Of a stretch of 64,000 bases of DNA, positions 3,964-50,982 are shown one piece after another. Source of the stretch: Hypomesus transpacificus. Taxonomy: Eukaryota; Chordata; Actinopteri; Osmeriformes; Osmeridae. The position numbers and the translations under genes were made by a program. The stretch spans positions 3,667,390-3,731,389 of the forward strand of contig NC_061061.1 in NCBI RefSeq assembly GCF_021917145.1, written 5' to 3'. A model generated the notes under the pieces. The model was not told the origin of the DNA. It searched no databases and saw nothing but the letters and a program-made list of their open reading frames with translations. Each line of letters begins with the position of its first letter. Position 1 is the stretch's first letter.

Positions 3964-4737
3964 ACGTTGTTAACCTCAATGATTGCCTCTTTTTGGCTTG
4001 TGTTCATTGCGACAAACAAAACATTCCAGTTCTTTTGACCACTTTAAATGTCTTTACTGCTACTTAAATTTTTTGCAGAAATTCCCTTTTTTGCACACCA
4101 CCTGCCTTGATATGTAGACTACTGTATAGGCTACTACAGACATAGGCTACCTCTGTCCAATGGTGTGTGTGAAAAAAAAGGATACGTGAAAAGAAAACCA
4201 AACTTGTGCTGGGCCTTAAAAAATGTACAGTATATCGTTGACCTAAGTAAATATTTCATTTTTTTAAGCGATTGTAACCTATTTACATAATCTAAATCTA
4301 TTTTGCATGTTGTGTTGCAAGGACACAAGACTCATGGTGACACTTCCCTCAGAGTATTGAAATGACTAATATCATAAAGGTATCTCGGTTTTAATAAAGT
4401 ATACTAAGAAACATTCTGAAACACTGTTTTCAAATCATCACCAGTGTCTTAACGTATTCTACTGTCAAGCTAAATGAAGCTAGCCTACTTGTGATCCCCA
4501 CATTTACGTGTTGCGTGTATTTCCAAGGAAATCTGCTATTGGGGCATACAAATAGAAGAACAACCACATGAGTTTAAAGGAAAGAAATATTTTTTATTTT
4601 AAAGTTTCTCAACAAAAAAATAAGAAGTTGTAAAAAATACCAAAGCAATGCAGAGTAAATGTTCATGTTTTAAACTTTTGCTGTTTAAAGTCAGAACCTA
4701 ACACATAGGTTTACAGACTTAAAATATTATGCAGAAT

Positions 4738-6541: not shown

Positions 6542-7065
6542 ACTTTGTTAACCTCAATGATTACCTCTTTTTGGCTTGTGTTCATTGCAACAAACAAAAC
6601 ATTCCAGTTCTTTTGACCACTTTAAATGTCTTTACTGCTACTTCAATTTTTTGCAGAAATTCCCTTTTTTGCACACCACCTGCCTTGATATGTAGACTAC
6701 TGTATACTACAGACATAGCTCTGTCCAATGGTGTGTGTGAAAAACAGGATACGTGAAAAGAAAACCAAACTTGTGCTGGGCCTTTAAAAATGTACAGTAT
6801 ATCGTTGAACTAAGTAAATATTTGTGCTGATGTGTGAAGGGTGGTGCGTTCGAATCCAGGCAGAGGTAAACATTCTTTTTATTCCTTTACGCCTTCAAGG
6901 AAGTTAACACTTGTTAATGGAGCGATCCCAGACTCTATGTACAAATGAAACGTACGAGAGTCTGGTTAGGACCAGGCTAGCCTACACTGGGCGCAAAATG
7001 AAAATCAAGAATTAGATTTCCAGAAGGTCATAAAGGAAACAATAATGAAACAGAGGGAGGGACGA

Positions 7066-19589: not shown

Positions 19590-22500
19590 ATGGCCGCTGT
19601 GCACTCACTCGAATCACAGGTTAAGCAGGGTATTTGTAGCGAGAAACTGGAAGAACCTGGGGTGATGACAGACCAGTGTGAACCTGAAAGTACATGTGAA
19701 TGGGCTAACAAAAGTGAAAGCGTAACTTTCGAGAATTCGTTTAATAACCGAGAATGCGGTACAAGTGGCGATGGGTTTGCAGGACAGAATGAACCTCTTA
19801 GCAATGCTACAGCTGGGGCTGATGTTGTGAGAAAAGATAGTTCAGTGGTCGATCTAACATGTGATTATGAAAAGGTTAACAACATAGACTTATCCTCGAA
19901 AAAACTGCGTTTGGATTGGTCTGAAACGGAGGATGATGCGGGGGATGCACGGGAGTACTCGAAAGAGAATGGAATAGACAGTAAGTGGGCTGGGAAATCA
20001 ATTATTCACAGCTAGCTTGCTAGCCAGCTATATAAAATGGAATTTAGCTACAAATCATATTATCTATTATGGGTTGCTACTTAAAGATTGCGTGTGTTAG
20101 CGGTGTTTCTCAGTGCTTATATCATTGCAGTTTCTTCCACTTTACTACTACTGCAGTAGTTGTATTTTTGTTGACCATTTTACTTATTATATACGTAACA
20201 CTTTATAGACTTATATTTTTGTTTTGTTTTGCATTCACAGTACGTAAGGATAACATGGAAAAAGCACTTGAAAGTGAGGATGTTTCAAAAGCAAAGGACC
20301 GCGGTAAAGACACATTAGATTCTGATGAAGACATAAGTCCAGTGGAGGTATTGTGTGATGAAGTAAATGACAGAAGAGAGGAGAAGATGGAACATGGAAG
20401 GACAGGATCGGGAGAAGAGAAAACGGTTCAGACAAGAAAGAAAAGGCTTGTATGCAAAGAGTGTGGAAAGATATTCACACGTCGGGAGACTTTTAACCTG
20501 CACCGCCACTTCCACACCCATGAGGGTGAGCTGGCCTCTCTCACCTGCAAGGAGTGTGGCCTTAGCTTTCAGCATCGCAGCACCCTCATAAAACACCGGA
20601 GCGAACATAAAGAAAAGGAGCAGGCCACAAACCAAAAACCAAGGGGGATTCAACTCATGACTTATCCGCGTGAGCGCTGTAAAATGACCTTCTCTGCACC
20701 GGCCAAGTTGAACCAGCGTGTCTGCAACAGTGTTCCAGAGAAGCCTTACCGCTGCCCTTTGTGCCGCAAAGAGTTTTTCTTTAAGTGCTCCATGACGAAG
20801 CACATACAGTCCCATTCACTGGATGTCGTCTTCCACTGCCAGGAATGTAACAAGGGCTTCTCGAATGGCATTGCACTGCGGTGCCACCAGCGCTGCCACT
20901 CTGCCCTCAAGCCCTACGAGTGTCCGGACTGTGGCATGGTATTTAGACACTACTCCGTCATGGAAGACCACCGGCGAAAGCACAAACAGCCCACCCGGCC
21001 CCACCAGTGCCACATCTGCAGCAAGACTTTCAAGTATGGCAGCCTCTTGCACCAGCATCAATATTTACACACAGGCCAGAAGCCTTTCCGTTGCCAAGAC
21101 TGTGGGAAAACGTTTGCATTCGCCCAGAACTTGAAGGCTCACTGCCGCCAGCATAAGCGCTGCCCTTATGCCTGCCCAATCTGTCCCCTCTCTTTCCCGG
21201 ACCAGGAAAGTTTACAAACTCATGTGACCAGTCACAGTAAAGTCAGAGGGCCAGACAAGGAGAATAACAACCAAGACGCGGAGCCAAAACGCATATTTAA
21301 CTGTCCCCTCTGCCCGCAGACGTATGTCAAGCCTGCAGACCTTCGTGGTCACATGCTCATCCATGAGGCTGAGTATGAGAAACTAGAGAACGGAGTCAAC
21401 AAGAACTGGGAGAATGCGTACACTTGCCCCCACTGTCCTCTCACTTTCCCTGACCAGTCGAGTTTGTGCACCCACCTGTCGACCCACGGGCCTCCTCCAT
21501 ACGGCGTCAGGACTGTGCGGAGGGAGCTCGAGATCATGAGAGGTATTCCACTTCAGAGTGGTGTTGCGTCAGAGAAACGGAAGGGGGAGGACATGAGTAG
21601 TAAGCCATTAAAGTGTCCAGACTGTGGCAAGGCATTCCGTCACCGCTCAGTGTTAGAACTGCACATGCGTATTCATTCCAAGGATAAGCCTTACCAGTGT
21701 AATGTGTGTCACAAGTCCTTCAGATTTAATAATTACCTGCAGCAGCACCTCATTATCCACACAGGTGAGAAGCCATACAAGTGTCCCGATTGTGGAAAAG
21801 ACTTTGCCTTTCTCCAAAACATGAGGACTCACCTAAAGCTGCATCAGCAGAAACCATTTCGGTGCACTCAGTGCCGTAAAGGCTACAGTGACGAGAGCCA
21901 GCTGCAGCGCCACATGCTGTCACACAACGGTGACAAACCCCACAAGTGCCAACTTTGTGACAAGAGCTTCGGGATAGCGTACCTATTGCGTGACCACATG
22001 AACACCCACACAGGTGAAAGACCCCATCGCTGCCAGGACTGTCACAAGTCATTTCCTTGGCTTAGTAGCCTTCTGGTGCATCAGAAAATCCATACACGTA
22101 AGCACCAGAGCCAAAGCTATCCTCACTCTTTCCCATTAGGTATTAGAATTAGAAGCAGAGGGCGGAGGGGACCAAAATTCTGGCCCAAAATGGCGGGCGG
22201 GTCGACTATGGTTGTTCCCCCAAACTATTCTCCCTATCAAGTTCCAATGTCTAGAGGTGCTGAGTGGGAGAGAAAGTCAGCCCAGCCACAGGTAGCCAAG
22301 ATGTCCACCCAGGTGGATATACCAGGCCAGCAGCTGCAAGAGCAGTGGATGCCTCAAGAGGAGCCACCGCCTGTGCAGTGGCAGGTGGAAGGCGGGCAGT
22401 TGAAGCCTGTATCAATGCCTCAGCTACTTAGATCACCCCAACAGCAGCCCCAACAAAGGCCGTCAGGTAGCCCGTCTCAGCCAGCCCCACAGCAGAGGAG

Positions 22501-23737
22501 TCCCGGATGGGCGGTCACCACCTCGTCACAGCCTGGCCCAAGTTCAGCTCTTGAGCCTCGTCACCTACGAGATGGTGGAACCACAGAGTTTGGGACCAAA
22601 CCCCTCACGGCAACTTTGCCAAAGTACCCCAACTTTTCAGACCTGAGTGAGGCGGAGCGTCAGAGACATCCCCAGGCCGTGGGTTGGGGTAGCACACCCA
22701 CAGCTGTACAGTTAGCCCCCTCATCTCAGCATAGCTTTTCGGTCAACACCGGTTTACCGGAAGTCGCAGCACTTTGGAGTGTGAGGCCCTCTCCGGTTGT
22801 ATCCACTTCTCAGAGCTCACCAAGAAAGCTTTGTGAGGAAGCTCAACAGTCAGGATGGCCGGGTGTCCTGGTGTCGCCACAAAATAGTGGGAGTGAGTTA
22901 TGCATGCCTCCTATAAAAGCTGACACGAGAGTATGGAATCTTGGTGCCCCTCAGGCTTTGCCACAGACAGTTAAGCAGTCAGAGATTCCTTGGAATGTAC
23001 TGGAGCGCCAGAGTCATTGGTCTTCAGGTTTAGCCACCTCAGCTCAAATGGGCCAAAACACAATTTTGTCAAATTCAACGCCATCATCTCCAGGGATGGG
23101 AAACATCTTGAATTCACTGGGAATTTCAAAGACTTTAAGCTCCCCTGAAAAGACAAGCACTAGTCAAGGGCTGCAGTCACAGCAAAAGCAACTTCCCTTC
23201 GGCTGGACCAATGTACCAACGTCCTCACACAAGGTTCCTCTCCCACTTCAGTATGACCTGCACCGTTTTCCGCACGGGGTAGGACCAGTATGGGGTTTCC
23301 AAAACACTCCAGTTGGCCCTCAGATCCTGCATGCAGGAACAGTCAAGCCAAGGGATGGACAGCAGCAGCCAATGATCACAGGCACAGGCATCATCATAAA
23401 TCAGACCTCCCCTTTTCTGTCTCCTCCACTTGCTCGGTTTCCACCTTTCGCTTTACCCACCCCTCACCCCCTTCACTCTGTAGCAGTCGGTTCCCTATCC
23501 AGACCTCCGCACCCAAACATTTTTTTTACGCCACAGGCGATCATGAGTGAGAGACCGCATATTCCACAGGCACTGCAGCTACCTCAGCTAGCCCCACAGA
23601 CAGAACCTCATAAAATTGGGGGTTGTGTGCCTTTTGCTCCAGACAGGCTTCTCCAATGCATGATCTGTGGCTATTCTCTTCCTCGGGAGCTCGATTTGCA
23701 AATGCACTACCTGCAGCATGCACAGGGAGAGATATGA
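19590..23737 (+). CDS. C2H2 zinc-finger protein, 1295 aa
   Basis: Two exons, 19590-19980 and 20241-23737 (3888 nt in frame, phase-1 intron). Exon 1 gives an acidic, Ser-rich N-terminus starting MAAVHSLE. Exon 2 carries about 16 C2H2 fingers from residue 202 to 750. Several are joined by TGEKP/TGERP linkers, and two near-identical fingers (CPICPLSFPDQ, CPHCPLTFPDQ) point to internal duplication. A region of about 500 residues rich in Pro, Gln and Ser follows. A lone last finger then ends HYLQHAQGEI, the tail shared with the genes at 9555, 25,079 and 32,477. It is probably a sequence-specific nuclear regulator; the Pro/Gln-rich part would be an effector region. The start is supported by its position just after the GC-rich promoter stretch and by an intact frame into the donor GTAAGT at 19,981. 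Confidence 0.9.
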
Positions 23738-34333: not shown

Positions 34334-35492
34334 TTAAACTCCTTTTGAATTGGCAGTGCAGATTTGAGTTTTTGTGTCACCGCTGGAGTGGTGTGAAGAA
34401 TCTTTCTGAGGGAGTAGGTTGCTGGAGTCCGAGTTCTGGGAGTCTGAGACCGGATTGTGTCTCTGTGGGCTGACCAAGTTGACCAGGGGCAAGACATCTT
34501 TAGTCTCTGTCTCCTCGCTTTTCCTCCAGGCACTGTTGCAGTTGTTCTGGTTACTGTGTTGGCGGAGTAAGATTTTGCTGCCAAAGTATTTCCCACAAGA
34601 AGTACATTGCACGTGTTGAGGGTTGCACCTAAATGGAGTAGAAACAAATACACTAAACAATCTCTGGACAAATCTCCACAGTAGTCAAACTACAATAAAC
34701 ACATGGCCTACAACAGAAAAATCCATAATCTATGTTAACAAACGGGTTTTACCTGTGTTTCTGGAGCGTGCCAGGCGAATGGAAATTACGAGAGCAAGCC
34801 TGGCACACGAGAGATTGTTTGTTGCTGATGTATGGTTTCCTTGTTTTGCAAATACTATTACTATTGGTTGTCGGAGGAGGACCAGGGTTGGAAGAGGTAG
34901 CACCGATTAGGTTGCAAGGACGAGATACTAAGTGGGCATAAGCCTGGTGCTGGGCAAGCTTAAGTCCTCCATGGAATGTCCGGGGGCACATGTTGCAGCG
35001 GTGTTTGTGTCTAGCTTTAATGTGATGATGCAGTAGGTAAGATGCTGTAAATGTGAGTTTACAGAAGCGACATGGATGTAGGATCTGAATTTCCTGGTCA
35101 GACCCATGTCGCTGTGAGGGTAGAGATGACGTCTTGGAGTGGGGAGTTTTCTCCAATGTTAAATAGGGGAAAGCTGCCGGGCATCTGTCTGCTTGCTGAA
35201 GAGAGACAGAGTTGGAGGATACAGGAGAATTTGGGCTCTGCGGTAGCAACTTGGAGCCAGTGGGGTCATTTTCTAGTGAGGCTGGGCGTGAGTTAGGATC
35301 TGGATTGTCAGAAGAAGGGGAAACCGTCAACATTTCCTGGAAAGACTCAGACGTTGCATGGCTCACTGGTTCCATTTTGAGGGAAATCTGGAGATTTTGC
35401 TGTTTTGAGACAGAATCCGTAGTCGCAGGGCAATGGGCACATCTGGTTGGGCTCTTTCTTGCCATCCAGCCACAGTACTGGCAAAAGATCAT
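34334..35492 (-). CDS. Four-finger C2H2 protein with N-terminal Cys-rich ribbon, 344 aa
   Basis: Two coding exons, 35492-34753 and 34628-34334 (1035 nt). The splice joins LQKHR to CNPQHVQC. The chosen start gives MIFCQYCGW followed by CAHCPA, two CX2C pairs that look like a zinc ribbon. The frame is open back to the acceptor before 35,503, in phase 1, so further N-terminal exons are possible. A candidate untranslated first exon ends at 36,184 (GCAG followed by GTACAG). Fingers are CRFCKLTF, CNMCPRTF, CQACSRNF and CTSCGKYF, with a long Ser/Pro-rich region before them. The last has Cys in place of the final His. AATAAA on the minus strand lies at 34,127-34,132. It is a nuclear DNA- or RNA-binding candidate of unknown function. 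Confidence 0.75.
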
Positions 35493-37424
35493 AGGATCTA
35501 GGGCTAAAGACACAGAATGTATTGTTGAGCAGGAGGAAGCAGCATATCCTGTTGACCAAAAACGTTAAGAAATATTTGTATTAGATGTATTCAGTCATAA
35601 TTTACAGCCCTGAAATTAGGCTACCCTGTTTTGGAGATTGAGAAGGGATAGCTGCTTTACAAACTTGAGTGGTGATGGGATATGTTTTATGTTCAATACA
35701 TACAATGTTCTAGGCTTTTTGGTGGTCTACTTGGAACCGACATTCCTTGATGTAGCCCAAGTATCCAGTATTTAGGTAAGATTATAGTTGAAGCTATGCG
35801 AAATAAAAATGTAAAATGCAAATCACACAAAATGCATTTCTCAAAACCTCACATTATGTTTTTGCTTTTGTGTTTGCATAGAACCCTAGAGCTATATCAT
35901 TCAGTACAATGATCTAGATCTGACGGAAATGGTTTGGTACTTGACAACTGTATTTAACCGAAAACACTAGCTCTAGCCAAATCAATTCCAAAACATGAGT
36001 GGTGTAGGATACTAATTTGACTCATACTGTACTGTTAGTGTGTATATTAATAATGCATACCGTCGCATGTAAGTATTCGCCTTTGCTCTGCAAGCAATAG
36101 CAGCAAAAAAGATTGACGTAGCTCTAATACGACACAGTAAAGATCTAGTTGTGTCCAAATATTACCAAATTTGACTACTGTACCTGCAAGTGAGCGATTT
36201 AATGAGTTGATATGAGAAAGCGTGGCCTCAAATTAAGTTGACGAGCGGGCAGTAGTATAAAGAATATTCCTTTGTCAACATTTTAATTTAAATAGTTTGT
36301 ATTTGTAGTTGCTAGGCGTTATTTTGCAATTCGACATAGGCATTTGAAAGCTTCGTGTAATTTCGCGGTAACGCCGTGTTTAGAACGTCTTAATGGTTTA
36401 TGATCATAATGCTGAAACAGATTATAGACTAATAATAGTCTAAATCCCATATAAAATACATTTATATCCATTAGATACATAATTGACAGATTTGTTGCAG
36501 CCCTCAAGGCAGCTCTCTTTATTACTTATTGGCAGTGTCCAGTCATGATGGATTATTGTGGAGTGAAAGAAAATCCGTAGAAACCATTGAATTCAGGCCA
36601 CCGCTGTCACTCCTGCCTGCTTGTCTTTAAACCCTGTCAGGTTCGTTTTAACACTTCAATATAAAAACACAGTGATCAAATTATGAGTGTGGCAGGATTA
36701 ATTTGTCTGCTTTTGCAGATAAATGAAATTAAAACATTTTACCAACAGGCCTAAAAAAAAAAGAAGTTACAATTAAATCTCTACATAATTCTATAATCAT
36801 TCAGTAATATAATTGAGATCTTAATCAATAATTGCAGTACTTTGTTTGATAATTCATCACTTCAAATGACTCCCAAAGTTAATAAATACATTATTCCTTT
36901 AAAAACAATTGGCCATTCAGACATTCACAACATTGTGAATTAGACATTTTATTGGGCCCTTTTTTAAATAGTTATTAAAAATGTTAAGATTTCATTTTCA
37001 ACCAAGACGAAAAGATGAAAGAAAGCATGACAAAAAATAATTTTAGAGAGGGGCCTCGTCACTCAACACACAGTTCACACAAGCACTTCTAAAAGAAACA
37101 TAAAACACAACACAATTATGGTTTAAAATAAATCAATTATAAAATGCTGAAATCAACATGATGCCCAGTAAGACAGGTTTACGACAAAATTAACATATTT
37201 TGGTTAGTCTAACTGAGTGGATAGTGGATCGACAACATGCCTTGTAAACCTCACATTTACCAAAAACCACTCCAAACTCTAGGTCTTCCTGTCAACTCCT
37301 GATCAGTTAAAACTCCCACGGTAAAAACAAAACTCAAACCCCTTTCCACTAAACACCCCCCCCCCCCCTTACATGAATTGATTGATGATTTTGAAAAAAC
37401 ACTCCCTCTCCCTCCCTCCATGAA
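35493..37424. other. Upstream region of the four-finger gene and 3' untranslated region of the next minus-strand gene
   Basis: The candidate first exon of the four-finger gene ends at 36,184. From about 36,930 to 37,424 lies the probable 3' untranslated region of the 474-aa gene, with AATAAA on the minus strand at 36,948-36,953 and a run of C at 37,357-37,370. The rest is AT-rich without recognised features. Confidence 0.4.
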
Positions 37425-40400
37425 TTATCTCTTGCTACGTCCGGCTGGCTTCTTCTTCTCCTCCTCCTCCTCCGGGTGGCTCTTCTGGTGGGCCTTCATG
37501 TTGCTCTCCCGACCAAAGCTTTTGCCGCAGGTTGGGCAGGAGTAGCGGCCAGTGGTGTGCACCCGGGCCTTATGGGCCTCCAGCTGCTCAGGGCGAGCAA
37601 AGCTCTCCTCACACTCCCCGCAGGGGTGGGCCTTCCTGGGGGTGTGCTTCTCCTTCTTGTGGGCACGGAGCTCGGCCAAGGCAGGGAAGGTGAGCTCACA
37701 CTCAGGGCAGCGGTGGAGGCGGGATGCATCAGCCTTGGGCTTCTTCTTCTTCTCCTCTTCCTCCTCCTCCTCCTCTGCAGGGCCTTGGCCGTCGCCTGCA
37801 GTAGCGGGCTGCTGTCCCGTCTCTTTACTTGCTGCGTGCTTCTCTTTCTTGTGGGCACGGAGCTGGACCAAGCCTGGGAAGGTGAGGTCGCACTCTGGGC
37901 AGCGTTGCTGGCGGGATGGAGCTGCTTTGGGTTTCTTCTCCTGCGCTGAGGTTTTGCCGTCACCCGCAGCAGCGGCCTCCTTGCCTGCAGCTGCTTTGGG
38001 TGGACGCCCTCGACCTGGTTTGGCTTTCGGCTCAGCTACAGCAGCTCCAGCGTCTTCCATGTGGTTGCTACTTTCCACCTCTTCCTTCACCTCCTCGTCT
38101 TCCTTCTTCTTCTTCCACTTCCCCTTCTTCTCAACGCCCGCGGCGTCTTCTGGTTTCAGGGCCCGCGCGCGCTTCTTGGAGGCGTCGCTGCCGTTGCATT
38201 GCTGGTCTCCCGCGTGGTTTTCCTGGTGCAGCACGAGCTCCGCTTCATTCTCGAAGCCCCGGGCACACTTCCCGCAGCGATGGGTCTTGGTGCTGTCATC
38301 GGCGTCCGTTCCTTCCTCCGCTTCGGGACGAGGGTGCTGGGCCAGGCGGTGGGCACGCAGCTGTGCAGGGTTCCGGAAGGTCTCGTTGCAGTCCTTACAC
38401 ACAAACTGACGCTCCGGACATATCTGTCTCCTGTGGGCTGTTAACTGAAAAGCACAAAAAAAGAGAATAGAATGGGGAACAAAGGGACGTGACCAAAGTT
38501 TAAACAAGCTAAACGTCACATCTTTTCCATTTCAACACAAGGCCATCGGCGTCCACATCCTCATTTTGCACCAACCTCGGAAAAGGTACGAAAGCACTCG
38601 TGACAGTAAGGGCACTTGAAGGGCTTGTCTTCCTTGCTGTGGGTGGGCTGGTGCTCTGTCAGCTCTTCAGAGGATGAAAAGGTGCGGTCGCACACGTAGC
38701 AGGTGAACAGCGTATCTCCCTGTGGGGCACAAACAGACATGGCATGTGGTGCGTCACAGAAAAACACAAACAAAACATTGCCTAAACATGTACTCACATT
38801 TCTTGTATTAGTTAGTTGTACAGCCAAAGACAGGTTTATGTAAAATATATGTATGTAGTAGTGGTGGGCCGTTATCGGCGTTAACGTGAGACTCTTATCG
38901 GGCGATAAAAAAAATATCGCAGTTAATCTATTTTCAAAGTTTGGTTGGTAGCTGGGTCTATACTACGCAAGCTATGATGACTTTCACCTTGATATTTTAG
39001 CGCAGATGTAGACCTAGCCGAATTGCAGTGTAGGCGAGAACGAGTCTTCGAACCTGTGTGTATGAAATTACCAGATCAAACGTGACGTGCTAACATAGAT
39101 GCAGCTATGAAGCCGCCGGGTTTCCTTCAGGGAAAATGTATTTTTAAGAAGCTTCCCAATGGAAACCTCAACAAGACTAAGGTTTTTTGCACCCGCGATG
39201 CAGAATTAGTTTACTGTACGAGTTCTTCCAGTCTCAAATACCACCTAAACGCAAAGCATCCCTTAGCTAATGTGGAAGATGTTGGGCCAAGCCCTGATGT
39301 TGCGCATGGGGAAATCGTCGTCAAACTACTGTTTGAGTGCAACTGAGGCAAGCCCGTCAGCACAGCTCTATCAGCCAAGCTAACTAATCTCCTCGCTCAC
39401 CTGGCTCGAAAAACCCGTTCTCAAAGACTTACTTTTAGTCATAATTTTTCGGTAGCAAACATATTCTGAATGCCTTTGCCGGAATTCAAATGAGCCATTT
39501 TAATCTAGATTAATTCCAAGATTACAGTGAGATTAATCTAGATTTAAAAAATGTATCTATGCCCACCTCTACTATGTAGTAATAGTATGTAGTAACACAC
39601 ACACATATATACACACATACATACACACTATCTATACAACTTTATATAAGTATATATAAACACATAAGTATAGGATACCTGCTGAAGCTGCTGCTTATAC
39701 TCCTCCCGATGGCTCTTCTTCATGTGCCTCTCCTTGGCTTTGGAGTTGCAGAAGGTGATGAAGCACTGGAAACACTGCAGGTTCTCATGTTGGTCTGGAA
39801 ACGGAGTATGCTATTAAGTTATGACAATTCACTGTGGACATTGAAAATGTGTTGTCTCTCTACTGTGTAAATGAGGGAAATGCTAGTAAGCATTTTAACA
39901 GCACTGCTTTGCAAGGAGTGGGTAATACGAGGATCATGTTGTTTAGTTGTAATTTGTTGAACTACATGCTCTTCTGGTTCTACCTATTGGGACTTATTTG
40001 CTTTTCACAATGTATGCTTTATGTGTTGGCTACCCACAATGTTTTGGGGACTATCTCGTTGTTTATGATCATTGACCTATGCACTTTTTGTAAAGCTCTT
40101 CCTTGTAAGTCGCTTTGGATAAAGCGTCTGCTAAATGAATAAATGTAATACAGCTGTAAGAACATGATTTTTGTTACAAGCCTGGGTAAGTAATTGAAGT
40201 AGTCCTAAATAACTTGAATTAAAGACTGACCCAATACCCTTCAAACTAAGTTTGCACATTTAGTTGATCAAAATATCCACTTAATAACTCACAAGGTTGA
40301 ATGACAGTTGGAAGTGGAGGCTTGGTGGTGATGGCCGGGTACGGTTTCTCAGGTTTAGATGGAGGGTCCTTCGCAGGGGGGTCCGGAGCTCCCCGTCCCA

Positions 40401-40437
40401 TTACTATTTCCTCTACGTTCAAAATGCCCGAATCCAT
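37425..40437 (-). CDS. C2H2 zinc-finger protein with AT-hook and Lys/Glu-rich linkers, 474 aa
   Basis: Four exons, 40437-40293, 39794-39679, 38719-38576 and 38444-37425 (1425 nt, all GT-AG, phases 1, 0, 0). Exon 2 encodes a first finger (CFQCFITF with ERHMKKSH) like that of the genes at 42,067 and 49,778. The third finger is split by intron 3. Exon 4 has six fingers, an AT-hook (GRGRPPKA) and charged low-complexity linkers. Fingers CPECDLTF and CPECELTF with the shared RAHKKEKH are products of an internal duplication that includes the Lys-rich linker. Nine fingers in total. The intron-2 sequence carries a hAT remnant and intron 1 a LINE tail. The N-terminal finger arrangement resembles human ZNF576 as I remember it; orthology is not claimed. 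Confidence 0.85.
38859..39571 (+). mobile_element. hAT DNA transposon remnant with BED-finger fragment
   Basis: Ends are TAGTGGTGGGC (left) and GCCCACCTCTA (right), inverted with one mismatch. They are flanked by 8-bp target-site duplications, GTATGTAG (38,851-38,858) and CTATGTAG (39,572-39,579), which differ at one base. The 8-bp size is diagnostic of hAT. An open stretch at 39,107-39,346 contains KVFCTRDAELVYC and SSLKYHLNAKH, the layout of a BED zinc finger with the second Cys pair imperfect. No transposase core remains. It sits in intron 2 of the 474-aa gene. Confidence 0.8.
39830..40149 (+). mobile_element. LINE 3' fragment whose tail is shared with the local SINEs
   Basis: The end, from about 40,104, reads GTAAGTCGCTTTGGATAAAG then CGTCTGCTAAATGAATAAAT. 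Its reverse complement matches the tail of the SINEs at 4738 and 14,012. The preceding 250 bases have no tRNA-like head, which fits a 5'-truncated LINE 3' end. The assignment to an L2/CR1-like clade is from memory of fish LINE tails. The left boundary is approximate. It lies in intron 1 of the 474-aa gene. Confidence 0.6.
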
Positions 40438-42066
40438 CTTGAGATGATACAAACACCCTCTGCTGATGACATAAATGACAAGTAGCAATCAAGCAATGAT
40501 TTGCTAGCTAGTTTAACTTGAATAGCTAACTAGCTAGCTAGCTTCACAGGAAGATGAACATGTCTGGAAGCATGCTGACTGTAAAGCTGCACACTGATTG
40601 TGACAAGCTAGGCTAAGCTCACTTGTGCCACATTTATTTTATGTGATAAGCCCACTGGATTTAAGCAGCCACTAAAAACAATCAAGCTAGCTAGCCAGCT
40701 AGCTATCGCATAGCTTACTTTTGTATCGACAGTTAGGGGTAACTAATTACACTCGTTGCTACTGTAGCAACAGACAAGAGTTTCCGCCAGATGCGGCTAG
40801 GCTAGATCCTACTGGTACAGTCAGGACCGACACGGAATAAGGCCCTGTTATGTAGCGCTATCTGGCTAACTTATTTGGCTATCTATCAAGTTTGAACATT
40901 AACAGTTACAGACTTTACAAAAATAATAAGACAGGGCAGTGGGAGTAGCCATTCCCAATTAGCATCACTATCAAGCAGTAAGCTAGCTAACGCTACAGCA
41001 AGTTTGTTAGCAATAAGTTTGTAGCTACTTTGTGTGGCAAACGTTTTGTATGTGCTGAAGACGGCTAACTAGGGCTAGCTACAGTTCTTTCAGACTTTCA
41101 TTTGCATTTAACAAAATATAATTAGTTAACACTAACAAACTTAATTAAATAGCAAAATAGCAATAGATACCCACACTTAAGGATAGCGTGTTCTCGAGCG
41201 TAGTTTGCTAACATTTAAATTGTTGAAATAAAGTTAGCTAACCAGTTAGCCACCACCAACCTCAATCGTTTTGTGTCAGTTTTGCCAAGTAGCGTGACGT
41301 CAGCACAGACAAAAAAGAGGCTGGCGGACTTTTTAGGTCGGAAGCCATGCAAGAGGCATTTTAGACAAACGCTTAAATTCGCGTTTTATGTAAAAAGTAA
41401 ACGCCTCCATATTTCAATTATGGCTGAGCCTATATCACAAAAATACCACCTCCGGCCGTAGCATATTTAAATATGTGAACGAAGTGGCTTTTAACCAATA
41501 AGCAAGAACAACCTTAACTTGTTAAGTTTCAGGCATATTGTTTTTAATCTTTTGAAGTTATGGTCAATTAAATTACACAGTATTTCGTGTATGAAATAAG
41601 GTTCATAGAAGTCAAGAGGCCACGCACACACACAATCATCTAAATGTTTCTTGCACTATTTTGGAAACCTTTCAGGAGTGAATAGTCTCCTGATAATTAC
41701 TACTGTTCAAGGTATTTACATCATCAATGCAAATCTAAAATTTCTCTCAAACATACACAAGACAATGATAGGCTACACTCAAAAACCTGCTGACCTCTGA
41801 TAAAAGGGAGAAGAACTAGCTGAAAAGCATCTTCTAATAAATACCACAGGAGAAGGAAACTCTTATTGGGAACCATAACAACCAAAACAAATATTGTACA
41901 GCGGCAATAAAATGACAGAAACTGACACCGAAAAGGCAAGATGGTGAAAGCGTGCAAAGAGAAATACTGTTTGACAGAGGAGAAATAATTAAAACCATTT
42001 AAATAACACATGATTCAATCTGGTTCATAGAGATAAACAATAGAGATAAACAATACTGGTTAACAA
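40438..42066. other. Promoter-side intergenic stretch between the 474-aa gene and the PiggyBac-fusion gene
   Basis: It is rich in GCTAGCTA words (40,500-41,050). A perfect TGACGTCA lies at 41,295-41,302, upstream of the 474-aa gene on the minus strand. The part just below 42,067 should be the 3' untranslated region of the fusion gene. No other gene is supported. Confidence 0.4.
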
Positions 42067-45000
42067 TCAGAAAAACCCATGACTGTGGAAATTCAAGAAG
42101 CAGTTGTGGTTGCGAGAGATACAGAGAAACACACAACACTTGAGGCACCGCACCCGAGATGTTCGCTCACATCCTCCGAAGCGACACCTGCTCTCTTCTC
42201 CCTCCCCAACCTGCTCAGGCCAGTGGCCCGAACCGTCGTACCGGGTGGCTGCATCTGGCAGAGGCCCTACCTGCATCAGACCAGGATTCGGAAGCACACC
42301 TTGGGTATGCACTGTCTGAGCTGGTGGTTGTGGAGGAATCGAGTCCTGGGTGTCGGAGCCACTGGATAGGATGAGGGCCTTGGAAACCTCCAACCGGAAT
42401 GCCATGAGGTTCAAAGCCTCCGGCTTCGGCCCAGGATGGCGGTCCTGCCGGTAATGCAGCCATGAGTTGACCAGAGCCACATCTGTAAGGTACCAAAGGA
42501 CTACTTGGGGCCAGCGGGATGCGGCCGATGCTGACCACGGGGTGCGGTAAAGTTCTCTCAAGTCTTTGTTAAGATGGGCAGCCTTTTCTGCTATTTCAAA
42601 ATTGTCGACCAAAGATGCTACATATGGCTGCTTCTTACCTACGGTGGACAGGATGAAGCCATGATGGGATCTGCGGAGCATCAATTTCCCATCTGAACTG
42701 ACAAACTCATCCCCAATCTGCCCCCGAGCTCCACCCACTTTGCCTGCACTATGAACACCCGACTCAAGGAGGCGCTCTAGCATGGCTGGGGTTGAGAGCT
42801 CTTGCTTACAGAGATACACCATCCCATCTCTGGGAACCATTTTCTCAACCGTGCCCTCTTTGTCAGACAGATCCAAACTTAGATCCAAATGTAGGATCAT
42901 ACCAGAGGATCCTAGTAAGACAGTGCTGTTCAGGGAGGGCTGGTTGTCATTGTGGTTGACTGCCCTAGCTGTCAAAGGAATGGTATATTGGTCAATTCCA
43001 TGGTCCCCCTCTCGCCTAAGCATCTCACATCCTGCCTGGATGCGGTTCAGTATGGGTCGGACCCTCCAAAGGGGATCCATTTTCGTCGCACAGCAGTTTT
43101 GTTGATCTGCACACCTTTGTACATTTCTAGAAGGGATTGAGTTTCTACATGTCGTAAACTTAGCACTTTGGTCATGCATTTGACTTGTATGACTTTGGCC
43201 ACTCCTGTCTGACCCAGTTGTAACTGGGCCAGCGATGAGATGAGTTGGAGTGTCTTGGGCTCTGTCCTCATCTCTTCCCGTGTCCCTAGGCATGTCAGTG
43301 TTACTATTGTTACCAGCTCGGCTTGCACCTTCGTCATATCTTATGTCCCTAACGTTGTCAATGGGTGGAGATGCTAGCTTTAGCTTGCAGGAAATCTGTG
43401 AAAACCGGGAGGCCGACATGGCCTCAGCAATCAGTGGAACCTTGGTGAAGTCCTGCCAGTAGAGTTGTAAACTGGGAAACTGAAAGAAACAAGTTTATTA
43501 GGTAGTTTAGTGTACAAAATAAACAATTATTTCATTTCCTCCCATTGGTCTTGTTCATTTTAGTGATTGATAACATGCATGATGTGACTCAGTGGGCACT
43601 AACCTTTAAAGTGCCCATTGCAATGTGGATACCAACAAACTGACAGACTTCTTTGGCTGTGACTGGGTTTGTCAGTTTGGACATTTTATTTGTACAGTTG
43701 GCAATATCTGCCCAGGTATCCCAGCCGAGATACCTGAGGAAGTAATCGATGGGCTTTCCACAGCTATTTCTTTCTCCATCTCTTTGTGCGCAGGATGATC
43801 CAGTTGTGGATCTGGAATGAGCCTGAGGCTCACAGGTCGACATTCTAAAAGAAAACCAGACATGGACTATATGACACAAGGCAGGAAGATGATCAAAGTA
43901 TAATAGAAGTTACTTGAAAGCCTGACTTAAATATATTACGATGTGATGTGCAGCACAAGTGCAGAGGAAAATTGGACCAAAACATAACCATCAATGTATA
44001 CATTATTTTCATAAAGACTATGCATTGTATAACAAATGTCTATGAAATAAAAATCCATTACTTGATTGTTGTTGTTTCATTTGGATGATGTTGTCCATGT
44101 TGATTTTGAAAACCCGCCATAAGCAGGGCTTCTGAGTCAGGTTGTGGATTACATAATTCCATATCAACAGAATCTTCATCATCAGAACTATTCAGGAGAA
44201 ATTCTAGAAGCTCAGAAGTGTCCTGCTGTTCAAAGTCGAGTTCACCTGGAAAAAAGAGAATGTCTGAGGACAAGTACAGCGGACATAACAAAGTTATGTT
44301 GCCCATGTGGTTTTACTCAAGTGAATGTTGAAAACATCCCGCAAATCATTCTCATCAGATATGTGGGTCACTGTAAAACATCAGAACGTACCCTCTGCTG
44401 TGTCAATCCCTTCACGCTCTTCTCCTGAGCTTCTGTCATCTGTCAGGCAAAAGTTTAAAAAATAGTTTTCAGTTAGGCTCTTGACGCTAGCACTTAGAAT
44501 GTTTATCACGGATAGGGAAACAATGCTTACGCAGTCTACCAAAGGTTGGCATGGCCTGGTGTTTTACAAACTGATCTTCCTGCTCCCCTGAGGAGGAGAC
44601 CCCAGGGTGACTCTGAGAAGGCTCCAGAAGAACTTCTCTCTCCTCCTGCTTCACTGGGTAGAAGATGCACTGCCTGACACTGGAGTCAACAGAAGAGGCT
44701 TGGATCCGCTCACCCATGTCTGGCTCTGTAAAACCACAGCACACAGTACACACAAGACATCAGTACTGAGTACTTCAGTAAGAGATTGGGCCTTTCTGTT
44801 TCAAAACGTTCCTCCTGTACTTACGTAAACCTGGGCCGCTATGAATGTCCACCTGCTCCACACTCCATCTGATCTGCTTCTGCCCCACTGCGTCCGGAGG
44901 ATCATTCTGTGAAACGGTCATCTCCTGCTTCACCAGAACAGACTTAATACCCTGTTGGAGCTGTGGCTCTGAATGTGGTTTGGTCTGAAAGCTGTGCAAT

Positions 45001-48000
45001 ATAGAAGGTGAATCAGAGCGCTGCTCCTCGTCTTCCCCCTCTCTGCGTCTCGAGGTAAGGAACCTCTCCAGTATGATGCCTGGAGACTGGACAGTGTTTC
45101 TGTCCTGCTCCCCCACTCCAATTCCCAAACCTTCCTCTGACTTCAGCACTTCCTCCACACTGGTGGTGACCGACTCCAGCTCAAAAACGACCTGCTCCTC
45201 CGGTGACTCCTCAAGGGAAGACGGCACGTTTGGTGCAGATGCAGCAGGAACAATGTCTCTGTGGGGCTCCGGTCTAGAATCGATCTCTGGCTCAACACTT
45301 GAAGCTGCCACACGACAAGGTTGCGGAGCACCAATTTGTACGTCATCTTTCATCTCTGAATCGACAGGGAGCGAGGGCTGCTCACAGACAACCTGACATT
45401 CATCTGTATCTTTGTCTGAACGTACCCGTCTCTGGCTGTCTCCGTCTAAACGTCCCCTTGGTGTTCTCCTTCCACGCCCGGATCCTCTCCTTCTGCGCCT
45501 AGCCACATTCTTTGGAGCAACTCCCTTCTTCTCCTCTTCTTTTCTTTGGACGAGTATCTCCTCCTCCTCTTGCTTGATCTCTGGATGCTCTGTGGAGCTG
45601 GAGGACGACTGTGTGCTTGGCCTCGTTTCAGCTATCTCAACATTTTCATTCAGATCCTCATGTGTAAGGGGTTCATGGGTGTTCTCTACTTCGCTTTGAC
45701 TCAATCCTTTTACAGTCTGACCTGTGGTACTCTTTTGACACAAGCTCTGGCCTTCTCTTTCATTTTGTTCCCCTACAGTGACTAAATCCACCTCCAAAAG
45801 TAACTCCTCCTTAATATCATCCTCTACTGGAGCTTGGTGTTCAGAAGTATAATCTGGAGTTAGGGAAATCTTACGGCTCTCCTGCACATGGCTCTGACTC
45901 TCTGGGACACCCTCCCCAGCCACATGCCCGCCAGCCTCGGCGTGGAGAGAGGTGTCGAGGGTTTCTATGGACGTGAGGTGAGGAGGGGACTGGCCCGACA
46001 CGAGGGGTTTTGCCTGGTCAGATATGAGAGGACCCGGGGAGACAATCGGTGGAGGAGAGTGAGATGGAGTTGAGTGCTCTGGAGGATCACCATGGCCCTG
46101 AAGGTTTCTGTCTTCACATCCATCACCTTCAGCAAGAGCCAGTGAGGGGGAGGGGTTCAGGGCTGGGAAAGAAAGCCCTTGCCCCTCTTTGTCACTTGAG
46201 GCTGTTTCTCCCACCTCTGCTTCCACGTCCCAGTCTGAAGCGACGTGCATGCCAAATGGGTTTGGATTCACTGGAATTTCAATCGATTTTGTACTCACGT
46301 TTGGAGCCTTGCCTAGGTTGGAACCCGTAACGCCCTCAAAGATGTTGCCGTTGGTGTAAGTCAGCTCGGGGCTTTCAACAGCATGCATGGCTGCCTTGTG
46401 TCCCTGGAGGGAGGAGACCTCATTGAAATTTGCCCCACAGTCGTTACACTCAAGGGCTCGGCCGGAATGAGACGAGGAGATGACTCCCTCGGTCTCCACC
46501 TTGGAGGTGCCACTGCGCTTTCTGGGAGCTTTCTTTGGCTTGGTGGGTTGTGAGTCAGAGGGCAAGGTGGTGAAGAGAGACGTCAACAGTGAAAGTCCTT
46601 TCTGGTTTTTCTTGGGCCTCCCCACTTTTTTCTGCATTCCAACACTTAGCATGTTAAGGGATTTACCACCTGGGCCGTTCCTCCTCTGTCGGAGTGTGTT
46701 GCCTTTACTCGGAGAGGATTGGGACTGAGGCTCCGGAGGTTCATCTGAGGCCTGCGAGGCATCTAATTTGTAAACTTTTAACTGGGGTTGTTTATGGCCT
46801 TTAAGTAAAAGTAAGGACTGTTGTGCTAATTTGGGGTCTGGTATCTCTAATGAGAGAAGGCTCATCTTTTCCAGATTAGCCTCTTCTAGCTTTCTCTTTT
46901 TCTCCTTCCTGGGCTGTTTGCCATCCTTTGTTTTCTTAGGCTGGCCTTCCTGTAGATGTGTCTGTGTGTTTTTGTTTGGTGGCTTTGGCGAGATGATGGT
47001 GTCGTGCTCAGTTGACTGCTCTGAACCCTCGTGAATTGCATCTTTATTCCTTTTCATTTTCTTTTTCTTAGATGTTACTTGCATTTGTTGCACTTGCAAA
47101 TTATTGACCGTATTGGTGGATTTGATTTCAGATTTGGATATCATCTTCCTTTGTTTGTCATTTTTTTCTTTCACCAACTTTTGTTTTGAAGGCACTTTTT
47201 TGTCTTCATTTGTTGGCGTTGAGACAAACATTTCATTTTGGTGTTGTGTTTGCACTTCTCTCTGAAGCAGCTTGACAGGCCTGGAAGGTTTTGGCTTCTT
47301 GGACTTTCTCTTTTTCTCTTTTTTCTCTTTGGGGCCAAATTTGACAACTAATCGAGCTTTTTTTGTTTTTCGCCGTTTGACAGGTTTTTCAACATTCTGC
47401 ATTGCCTCCAAACTATGCTGCAACGTAGCCTGTTTTCTTTTCCGTACTTTTACAAATTCTTGAACTGACATATTTATTGGTAGTTGTGAAACCGTTTTAA
47501 GCTGTTTAGTCTCTGGTGGAGGAAGAGATGTCTGTGACACATTATGTTTTATGCTGTTTACTTTAGAATGAAACCCCTGTTCCTCTGCATTATCGGGCAT
47601 GCCAAGGCCCTTCTCCCTCTCTCCATCTTCCAATGGATGTTTCTCAGTGGAGTCCTGTACAACTTCGTCCACCTTCTGCTTAGCCGAGTCAATTTCCAGA
47701 TTGGAAATTACTTCAACTCCACTACTCGTTTCTGTATGTGCGGTTTCCCCTTGTCCCTGATTACTTTCATGTTCTGAAGTTTGAGTAAATGTCACTGTCT
47801 GTACCAAAGAGGAAGTTGTCAACTCTAACTCAACCGTTGGGGTAAGAGTTGGGACAGGCATCAATTCACACTGACCTATTAGAGATTGGCCAGAGGTCTG
47901 CTCCAGTTCAGTGATTGGCACCAGAGAGGATTCAGACATTAGCCCTTCCTGTACGGTTGGAGGCAGTTCCATATCCAGAGTCGGTACCAATGGCGTGAGT

Positions 48001-48724
48001 TCCAATACGACTGTTTGCTCTTGGACTTGTTCCAGTTCAACCCCCTCACTCTGAGAGACGTTTGGATCCGCAGAATGACCTTCTGCTCTCTGTCCGGTCT
48101 CTGCCGGTTCAAGAAGCTGCTCAGGCCTCATCTCCCCTCTGTGTGTCAGCACCTCCTCAGCCTCAACTATTGTTGGCCCTGCTTTTTCCACCGGGAAAGC
48201 GCATTCATCTGCCCGTGTGAGTGAAAGTGACGGGTGCTCCATTTGTTCGTCTAGTACGACTGGCTGTATTGTATTCGTTATCGCTGTCCCCTCACAAGGC
48301 ATGACCGTCAATCCCAGTTCTAATGACCCAGTCTCTTTCAACTCCACTAGCTCCAACTGTGGAGGAGTAAGATGTAGTTGCAATGGTTCTCCAATGCACT
48401 GGAACCGCTGCAGGTCCAGAGGCTGGGCATGAGGTGGTACCTGCCCCAGTACAACCACCTGGTTGACTCTCTGTACGTTTCCCAAAGACTCGATGAGTTT
48501 GCGGATTTGTTCAGTGTCTATGTTGTCTACTTGTTGAAGGGGTCCAAGGGGTTCCAAGTGTGGGAAGAACATGGGGGCCGGGGTTATAATAGGCATTCCC
48601 AGTTTCACCTGTTGTCCAGCCAATGGCTCAGTCGGATGCTTGCGTTTCATGTGGTGCATTCGTGTTTTGTCGGTCTTAAAGGTGGCCTTGCATATTGAGC
48701 AGGGGTATTTCACTGCAGACAAAC
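42067..48724 (-). CDS. Zinc-finger / PiggyBac-transposase fusion protein, about 1990 aa, 5' exon not found
   Basis: Exons are 48724-44825, 44725-44531, 44439-44392, 44245-44062, 43844-43604 and 43479-42067. All junctions are GT-AG and phase-compatible (1,1,1,2,0). The 3.9-kb exon encodes a first finger (YPCSICKATF with MHHMKRKHP), long Glu/Thr-rich and Lys-rich regions, a second finger (CNDCGANF, near residue 758) and basic GRGRRTPRGR. Exons 2-4 are acidic. The last two exons encode a PiggyBac-type domain: DYFLRYLGWDTWADIANCTN, IAMGTLKFPSLQLYWQDF, DPLWRVRPILNRIQ, then GIDQY at the first catalytic-Asp position. VYLCKQELST follows where active elements have an Asp-Asn pair, so the second catalytic Asp looks lost. 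DVALVNSWLHYRQ and a C-terminal Cys-rich module (RCRFGGC, RCLKCC) come next. It is probably a domesticated DNA-binding regulator. The first exon is missing from view. Confidence 0.78.
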
Positions 48725-49777: not shown

Positions 49778-50982
49778 TCAACACTCCTCACCATTTTTCT
49801 TCTGAAGTGCCTTTGCAGAGGAAGTCTGGATTTCCTCGTTTCCTTCCGACCCTTCCACCGAGTGTGTCTGCTGGTGTTTCTGGAGAGCCTTGGTCATGCT
49901 AAAACGCTTGCCACAGTCCTTGCACACATACGGCCTCTCCCCTGTGTGTGTGCGGCTGTGATATTTCAGCAGGGTCAGAGTCTTGCAGGGCTTTCCGCAG
50001 ACTGAGCAGGTGTAGCCATGCTGACCTATGTGGATTTTCTTATGGAGGGTGAGCTCTGAGGATCTGGAGAAGGCGTCGCCACAGATGGGACACTTGAACG
50101 GCTGCTTCTCGGTGTGGGCCCGCTGGTGGGTCATAAGGTCAGTGGAGTTGGTGAAGTGACGGTCACAGACGTAGCAGGCGAACATGGCATCCCCCAGGAT
50201 GCATTGCTCGTACTGCGCTGGGTGACTCAGCTTGAGGTGGCGCTCCCTGCTCTTGTGATCGCTGAAGATGATGTGGCACTCCAGGCACTCCAAGGAGAGC
50301 TGGGAAGCTGAATGAGGAACAGGTGGATGAGTTACAAGGACGTCACATCAAGGCATCGCAACTCTGTGTGACACTGTCAAGTTTGTTACTAAGGTACAAG
50401 TTCAGGGCTTTCACAGGAATCAGAGGAATCAGAAAAACAATCCTTACATGTTAGAGGCATCACCACGGACTTAGACATGTCCATCTTCAGAGGCTCCAGT
50501 CTGTCCTTCTTGGGAGGGATGAATAGTTTGCGAGGCATTATGTTACACACTTTCACCTCCTCTACATCCATAGAAGAATCTAGAGCCCCCTCTTCACGAT
50601 CATTAGACTCTATAGAGACATCGGACAGATCAGAAACCATCTTAGTGGGACAAGTCAACTCTGGTGCGCTCTCCAAATCTACCTCCCTAGTGGTAGATAA
50701 AAGCTCCAGCATTGGTTGAGGGTTTATAGATCTGGTCCCTGTCTCACTGTCTACTGGTTGAGGGTCTATAGATCTGGTCCCTGTCTCACTGTCTACTGGT
50801 TGAGGGTCTATAGATCGGGCCCCTGTCTCACTGTCTACTGGTTGAGGGTCTATAGATGGGGCCCCTGTCTCACTGTCTACTGGTTGAGGGTCTATAGATT
50901 GGGCTTCTGTCTCGCTCTCCATTGGCTGTGTCGCTGTCTCACTCTTAGCTGGTTGTTCTAGCCTCTCCATGGTCCAGTTCAT
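49778..50982 (-). CDS. C2H2 zinc-finger protein with 14-residue tandem repeats, 354 aa
   Basis: Two coding exons, 50982-50448 and 50307-49778 (1065 nt, phase-1 junction). The start chosen is MNWTMERLEQ, within an exon that begins at an acceptor before 51,020. Exon 1 carries about five copies of a 14-residue unit (PQPVDSETGARSID) and an acidic Ser-rich part. Exon 2 has six fingers: CLECHIIF with ERHLKLSHP, CYVCDRHF, CPICGDAF, a variant CSVCGKPC, CKDCGKRF and neighbours, with HTGERPYVC linkers. It shares the first-finger design and the phase-1 intron in front of it with the genes at 37,425 and 42,067. Its 3' untranslated region must run antisense through a LINE tail, which supplies minus-strand AATAAA words at 49,656-49,670. 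It is presumably a nuclear regulator. Confidence 0.85.
50716..50925 (-). repeat. 42-bp coding minisatellite
   Basis: Five 42-bp units lie in the 354-aa gene, the first four nearly identical and the last diverged. Each unit encodes 14 residues containing VDSETG and SIDPQP. The unit length, a multiple of three, keeps the frame. Confidence 0.9.

Follow-up and report, generated by a model that had tools for sequence, protein, structure and literature searches.

Fusions of host genes to PiggyBac transposases are a kind of gene known in other animals, and the gene described here looks like a further case. In CSB-PGBD3 of primates, a host N-terminal part is spliced to a PiggyBac domain that has lost a catalytic residue, and the available portion of PMC2268245 proposes a role in anti-transposon defence or gene regulation. 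The element lies in an intron with its TTAA and terminal repeats still visible, and its transposase is a single exon in which one D has changed to N (PMC2268245 and PMC3902484, available portions). PGBD1 of mammals carries SCAN and KRAB, which are domains of zinc-finger regulators, upstream of PiggyBac, and the excerpt of PMC9499001 at hand names no finger array in it. In the portion of PMC3902484 at hand, PiggyBac transposases are mostly described as uninterrupted; the transposase part of PGBD1, 2, and 3 is a single 3' exon, introns are present in that of PGBD5 and the ciliate piggyMacs, and PGBD5, a chordate gene, has lost three of the four conserved Asp residues. According to the excerpt of PMC8086355, PGBD1 and PGBD5 have no recognisable Cys-rich domain, and neither this excerpt nor that of PMC3902484 describes a finger fusion of PGBD5. 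In POGZ and POGK, a C2H2 or KRAB host part is fused to a whole transposase of the pogo superfamily (PMC7386202, available portion). For tetrapods, there is a survey of regulators that captured transposases (Cosby et al. 2021, cited in the accessible part of PMC12062965).

The locus presented here lies in the window, i.e., the whole stretch of 64,000 nucleotides that was analysed. Its predicted protein consists of seven C2H2 fingers, a long low-complexity part, and a PiggyBac domain. Like CSB-PGBD3, it is predicted to have a host part spliced to a catalytically impaired transposase, but the host part consists of C2H2 fingers and not of a chromatin remodeller, and the transposase is not a single exon with a single change. 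The upstream zinc-finger-regulator part recalls PGBD1, from which, as described above, the gene differs in its array of seven fingers, its split transposase part, and its Cys-rich domain. The introns in the transposase domain and the loss of three Asp residues recall PGBD5, which, unlike the window gene, is not described with a finger fusion and has no recognisable Cys-rich domain. The architecture of POGZ and POGK is similar, although the transposase of the window gene belongs to PiggyBac. The gene thus shares single features with known PGBD genes and is identical to none of them in its combination of fingers, a split and dead PiggyBac domain, and a Cys-rich domain. A literature search, which did not cover two key surveys, turned up no description of this C2H2-PiggyBac gene; it might be among the domesticated PGBD proteins that PMC8086355 lists in the legend of its figure 1 for Oreochromis, Pundamilia, and Takifugu. 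From the sequence we consider the locus to be probably (at about 0.75) one host gene, encoding an old, catalytically dead, domesticated fusion of zinc fingers and a PiggyBac transposase.

Gene structure

Exon joining and translation gave eight coding exons on the minus strand between 50982 and 42067, with GT-AG at every intron and compatible phases (1, 1, 1, 1, 1, 2, and 0 at the starts of exons 2 to 8). The spliced frame encodes 2343 amino acids, its sole stop is terminal, and the host and transposase domains share this one open frame. The features are as follows.

50448..50982, minus strand: coding exon 1, begins with ATG, contains a 17-aa peptide repeat; donor CAT/GTAAGG, phase 1 at its end
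49792..50307, minus strand: coding exon 2, five C2H2 fingers (gene model, Pfam, and motif scan)
44825..48724, minus strand: coding exon 3 (3900 nt), with two C2H2 fingers, an AT-hook-like GRPK, psi-K-x-E motifs, and stretches that are basic or of low complexity
44531..44725, minus strand: coding exon 4, phase 1-1, weak donor TGC/GTAAGC
44392..44439, minus strand: coding exon 5, 48 nt, phase 1-1
44062..44245, minus strand: coding exon 6, acidic stretch where the PiggyBac N-terminal disordered region would be, by comparison with the acidic exon of the transposon L043
43845..44061, minus strand: intron separating the acidic exon from the PiggyBac domain, phase 2
43604..43844, minus strand: coding exon 7, first portion of the PiggyBac domain
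43480..43603, minus strand: phase-0 intron within the PiggyBac domain; L043, the nearest transposon, lacks it
42067..43479, minus strand: coding exon 8, remaining PiggyBac domain with a catalytic core that is dead, the Cys-rich domain at the C-terminus, and the stop codon
41543..41548, minus strand: ATTAAA, possible poly(A) signal 3' of the PiggyBac stop

A first-pass annotation made from the letters alone had described six exons with an intact frame and with introns interrupting the transposase part. All six are present, up to single-base choices of boundary, with GT-AG introns and fitting phases, and they are the last six of a longer gene, of which two in-phase 5' exons (50982-50448 and 50307-49792) had been missed. 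The frame is intact over the full 2343 residues to the one stop at its end, and the two introns at 44061-43845 and 43603-43480 are required, since the reading frame ends shortly after exons 6 and 7. The 3.9-kb exon taken to hold the zinc fingers and low-complexity sequence does exist, as exon 3; however, only two of the seven fingers are in it, and the other five are in exon 2.

Splice sites were ranked with a simple score from a consensus table. The acceptors of exons 2, 3, and 5 to 8 are each beaten by at most 22 of 831 AG sites, and that of exon 4 by 60. The donors of exons 1 to 7 are beaten by 4, 1, 22, 109, 12, 59, and 3 of 553 GT sites, respectively; the exon 4 donor is therefore weak, and that of exon 6 (59 of 553) is middling. 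Since the junctions from exon 1/2 through exon 5/6 are all in phase 1, skipping among exons 2 to 5 would keep the frame. None of 500 first-order Markov copies of the last exon was open (mean of 18 stops), nor was any of 300 copies made from the three PiggyBac exons jointly.

The weak exon 4 donor raises the question of whether two adjacent genes are present, i.e., a zinc-finger gene with its end in or close to exons 3 to 5 and a separate domesticated PiggyBac gene (exons 6 to 8 or 7 and 8) with its own start. An in-frame ATG opens exon 7, and read-through past exon 3 meets a stop at 44775, within 50 nt, so that separate or truncated products are possible. On the other hand, no AATAAA or ATTAAA was found on the coding strand from exon 3 to 43690, which is inside exon 7, and exons 3 to 6 are joined in one phase. 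The CpG observed/expected ratio is 0.35 to 0.38 between the two parts, against 0.65 to 0.84 at 51.0 to 52.7 kb, although the latter region is no classical island because its G+C content is only 0.40 to 0.42. We therefore regard two genes as unlikely and retain the reading of one fused gene.

PiggyBac domain

The protein of exons 6 to 8 matches the Pfam profile PF13843 in two stretches with 67.9 bits (E = 1.3e-18; curated cut-off, 22.4 bits). The first-pass annotation had recognised an almost complete PiggyBac domain; the N-terminal part, the core, and the Cys-rich domain are all present. A profile built from the window domain and six transposons matches the structures of piggyBat (9c0f; E = 1.2e-92) and piggyBac (6x67; E = 5.6e-77), and plain phmmer with the window domain alone found nothing real in the PDB (best E = 0.39). 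The AlphaFold2 model of exon 8 alone from a single sequence has a mean pLDDT of 33.2, and its fold is unreliable.

Open frames of at least 250 aa were collected from 22 PiggyBac loci of the genome (L003, L007, and L029 to L048; near-copies of L003 were unused). They yielded 23 frames, none of them from L048; two shorter than 390 aa were omitted, and the alignment has 22 rows. Four columns were scored, which we take to be the canonical PiggyBac Asp residues (D268, D346, D447, and D450 of T. ni). The first Asp (GIDQY) is retained in the window domain and is Asp in 22 of 22 rows. The second is replaced by Lys (VYLCKQ), where 19 of 22 rows have Asp; the alignment thus bears out the earlier call that the first Asp is kept and the second lost. 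His stands at the Asp of the MGGVD motif (Asp in 19 of 22 rows) and Lys at the Asp three residues further on (20 of 22), calls that depend on the alignment because the Asp in LNKDL adjoins those two columns. One of the four canonical Asp residues is therefore kept, and approximately 19 residues downstream of the first Asp are missing. In the C-terminal Cys-rich domain, an upstream His and the Cys/His series align with those of L043 (21 of 49 positions identical); a His ahead of the Cys series is described for Pgm, PLE-wu, and piggyBat in the available part of PMC8086355. As judged from these residues, the window domain is a descendant of PiggyBac but not an active one. Among the aligned rows, another open PiggyBac frame of 709 aa at L039 (G000:C21:10440800-10444400) has His at the second Asp and Asn at the MGGVD Asp.

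Copy number and relatives

The genome searched comprises 437 Mb in 376 contigs. In it, the PiggyBac part of the window gene finds a single DNA match, namely itself; a single copy with an intact frame, as seen here, is what would be looked for in a domesticated PiggyBac-derived gene. The PF13843 search gave at least 121 matches (best, 302.7 bits in open frames), which is a lower bound: 116 of 216 candidates were scored, split domains can be missed, and the window gene itself is absent from the matches listed. In a protein search of the genome, three of the 25 matches listed are the window gene's own exons, and the closest other one among them is on contig C56 (L012/L043), with 36% identity over 151 aa at the C-terminal end. 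The window domain is 30% identical to L043 (G000:C56:109300-112900) over the pairwise alignment and 27% over the 438 columns used for the tree. A partial second copy of L043 on C26 is 94 to 96% identical, and we therefore regard L043 as a transposon of low copy number. In a tree of 17 rows (L029, L037, L042, L045, and L047 were left out), the window domain joins L043 (94/93) and then L046 (100/99), a placement that is unsure, since its branch is 2.19 long and the tool itself warns of a row of such length. Two further searches for relatives gave 29 pattern matches in genome_contigs and 2 in viral_contigs, of which none was confirmed. The first 387 aa of the protein match elsewhere in the genome only as fingers, at no more than 48% identity among the matches listed of 206, and thus no second copy of the gene was seen among these.

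A recent transposon insertion is ruled out, since there is no other DNA match and the nearest protein relative is approximately 27 to 30% identical. Terminal inverted repeats with TTAA, flanking a lineage-specific PiggyBac part, had been named beforehand as a finding that would refute the fusion reading. Around the PiggyBac part, the best inverted repeat adjoining TTAA matches at 11 of 16 positions, which was equalled in 29 of 200 shuffles, so that none stands out from chance; the control copies, however, showed no clear repeats either, and the test weighs less against a recent insertion because they had too little flank.

L043 itself allows a three-exon reading, in which an acidic exon at 483-704, a short exon at 809-982, and a core exon from 1155 join at phase-1 junctions and give one stop. 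Like the window gene, it splits an acidic exon from the core. We do not claim that the exon 6/7 intron was inherited from the transposon, because the introns of L043 there are in phase 1 and that of the window gene is in phase 2.

Elsewhere in the genome, the copies of one PiggyBac family (L001 to L006 and L008, on C12, C18, C222, C363, C328, C13, and C372) are 98 to 99.9% alike over most long blocks; some blocks are at 94 to 97.5%, and several copies reach the ends of the stretches compared. The family is therefore young, and its elements may be long.

Conservation of the domain

Conservation was measured as the mean identity of the window domain to six outgroup transposons relative to that of L043. 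It is 1.07 for the N-terminal part (95% interval, 0.87 to 1.33), 0.94 for the Cys-rich domain (0.77 to 1.13), and 0.62 for the catalytic core (0.50 to 0.77), the lowest of the three. Conservation thus reaches the level seen between transposons in the N-terminal part and in the Cys-rich domain but not in the core. Identities between the window domain and L043 are 27/87, 65/230, and 21/49 (31.0, 28.3, and 42.9%) for the N-terminal part, core, and Cys-rich domain, respectively, and those between L043 and L046 are 26.4, 39.4, and 37.8%.

The long branch and the weakly conserved core would also suit a decaying PiggyBac remnant without function that is open by chance or rarely spliced in. However, when the core of L043 was allowed to decay neutrally to 45% identity in simulation, 0 of 300 runs remained open (at least 6 stops, mean of 15), whereas the three exons of the window gene are open at approximately 30% identity, which points indirectly to selection on the PiggyBac protein. 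The transposon-level conservation of the N-terminal part and the Cys-rich domain also argues against a remnant, and we consider it very improbable. It is hardly conceivable that the domain still cuts and joins DNA through other residues, as claimed for PGBD5, which was reported to induce transposition (PMC4625184, available part) without three of the four conserved Asp residues (PMC3902484, available part), since the window domain lacks three of the four Asp residues and approximately 19 residues past the first, and its core is less conserved than its other parts.

The first-pass interpretation, a host zinc-finger gene fused to a PiggyBac domain disabled for cutting, is therefore supported by the exon phases, the single DNA match, and the distance to the nearest relative, as well as by the loss of catalytic residues, the uneven conservation, and the absence of AATAAA and ATTAAA between exon 3 and 43690.

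Zinc-finger part and neighbouring genes

The first 387 aa of the fusion protein score as C2H2 in Pfam. The protein of exons 3 to 5 matches C2H2 models only, each of them below its cut-off. The psi-K-x-E motifs (IKQE at 1400, VKQE at 1615 and 1675) and the GRPK at 1052, which resembles an AT-hook, would suit a nuclear regulator but prove nothing. In exon 1, tandem copies of a 17-aa peptide repeat (SIDPQPVDSETG..) occupy 50740-50910 on the minus strand and are likely a site of length variation.

Just downstream on the same strand is a zinc-finger gene (34749-40488, minus strand) with no PiggyBac part. Two finger exons are common to it and the fusion gene (38719-38573, 51% identity over 49 aa; 39804-39691, 39% over 38 aa), and it is probably a tandem paralogue, although the scores of generic finger arrays at other places in the window are equal or higher. 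Within the window, no further PiggyBac match has an E value below 5; together with the shared finger exons, this indicates that the capture probably concerns one member of the tandem pair. The zinc-finger proteins at 9555-33740 have a common C-terminal finger that ends in HARGEL or a close variant (at 9575 on the minus strand and at 30944 and 33707 on the plus strand; HAQGEI ends the frame 20048-23737), an ending shared with mammalian ZNF576.

A probable second PiggyBac capture

On the same contig as the window gene, a pogz-like gene (G000:C2:9578606-9582669; L057:4607-8670) contains a dead PiggyBac exon, internal and in frame; the name is our assumption from the domain order. At the DNA level, its open PiggyBac frame (L044, C2:9579279-9580369) matches only itself in the genome. 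The 22-row alignment shows Ala at its second Asp and Lys at the last, while the MGGVD Asp is kept. L044 reads as the internal exon L057:5090-6766 of 559 codons (PF13843, 169.9 bits for the surrounding open frame), with flanking exons at 4607-4719 before it and 6911-6947 after it and a pogo-type exon from 7053 that matches HTH_Tnp_Tc5 (28 bits; cut-off, 22.2) and DDE_1 (30 bits; cut-off, 22). The joined exons contain 1148 codons and no stop; upstream, outside the joined frame, the same strand carries four C2H2 motifs. In the tree, L044 groups with L036 (100/100) and not with the window domain, and the two PiggyBac captures therefore look separate. The excerpt of PMC7386202 lists fingers, HTH, and DDE for POGZ and mentions no PiggyBac part; the literature search, with the same two key surveys outside its coverage, found no report of a PiggyBac exon in pogz.

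Proposed origin and function

The fusion may have arisen when a PiggyBac element inserted into an intron of a C2H2 gene, or downstream of such a gene, and became joined by splicing to the phase-1 exons of the host. Such a capture would be simple because L043, the nearest relative in the genome, allows a reading in which a phase-1 acceptor precedes its acidic exon. Decay would then have affected the catalytic core, with the N-terminal part and the Cys-rich domain remaining conserved.

From this arrangement we infer the fused transcript and the binding and function of the predicted protein, and the odds that it is a nuclear regulator that binds DNA or chromatin are about even. In such a regulator, the fingers and the Cys-rich domain would provide two binding surfaces for DNA or chromatin, and the PiggyBac N-terminal part may have been kept to help assembly or the binding of ends. 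The targets could be host genes or PiggyBac elements.

That the pogz-like gene, too, has a PiggyBac exon suggests that regulators have captured PiggyBac more than once in this lineage. A wider proposal, which we put forward tentatively and consider doubtful, is that zinc-finger regulators here captured dead PiggyBac domains at least twice independently and that such fusions bind PiggyBac ends or chromatin, thereby restraining a PiggyBac population that is still young. With a captured domain in the same genome as at least 121 PiggyBac-domain matches, near-identical copies among them, this fish would be a place to test whether a captured transposase can guard against its own family.
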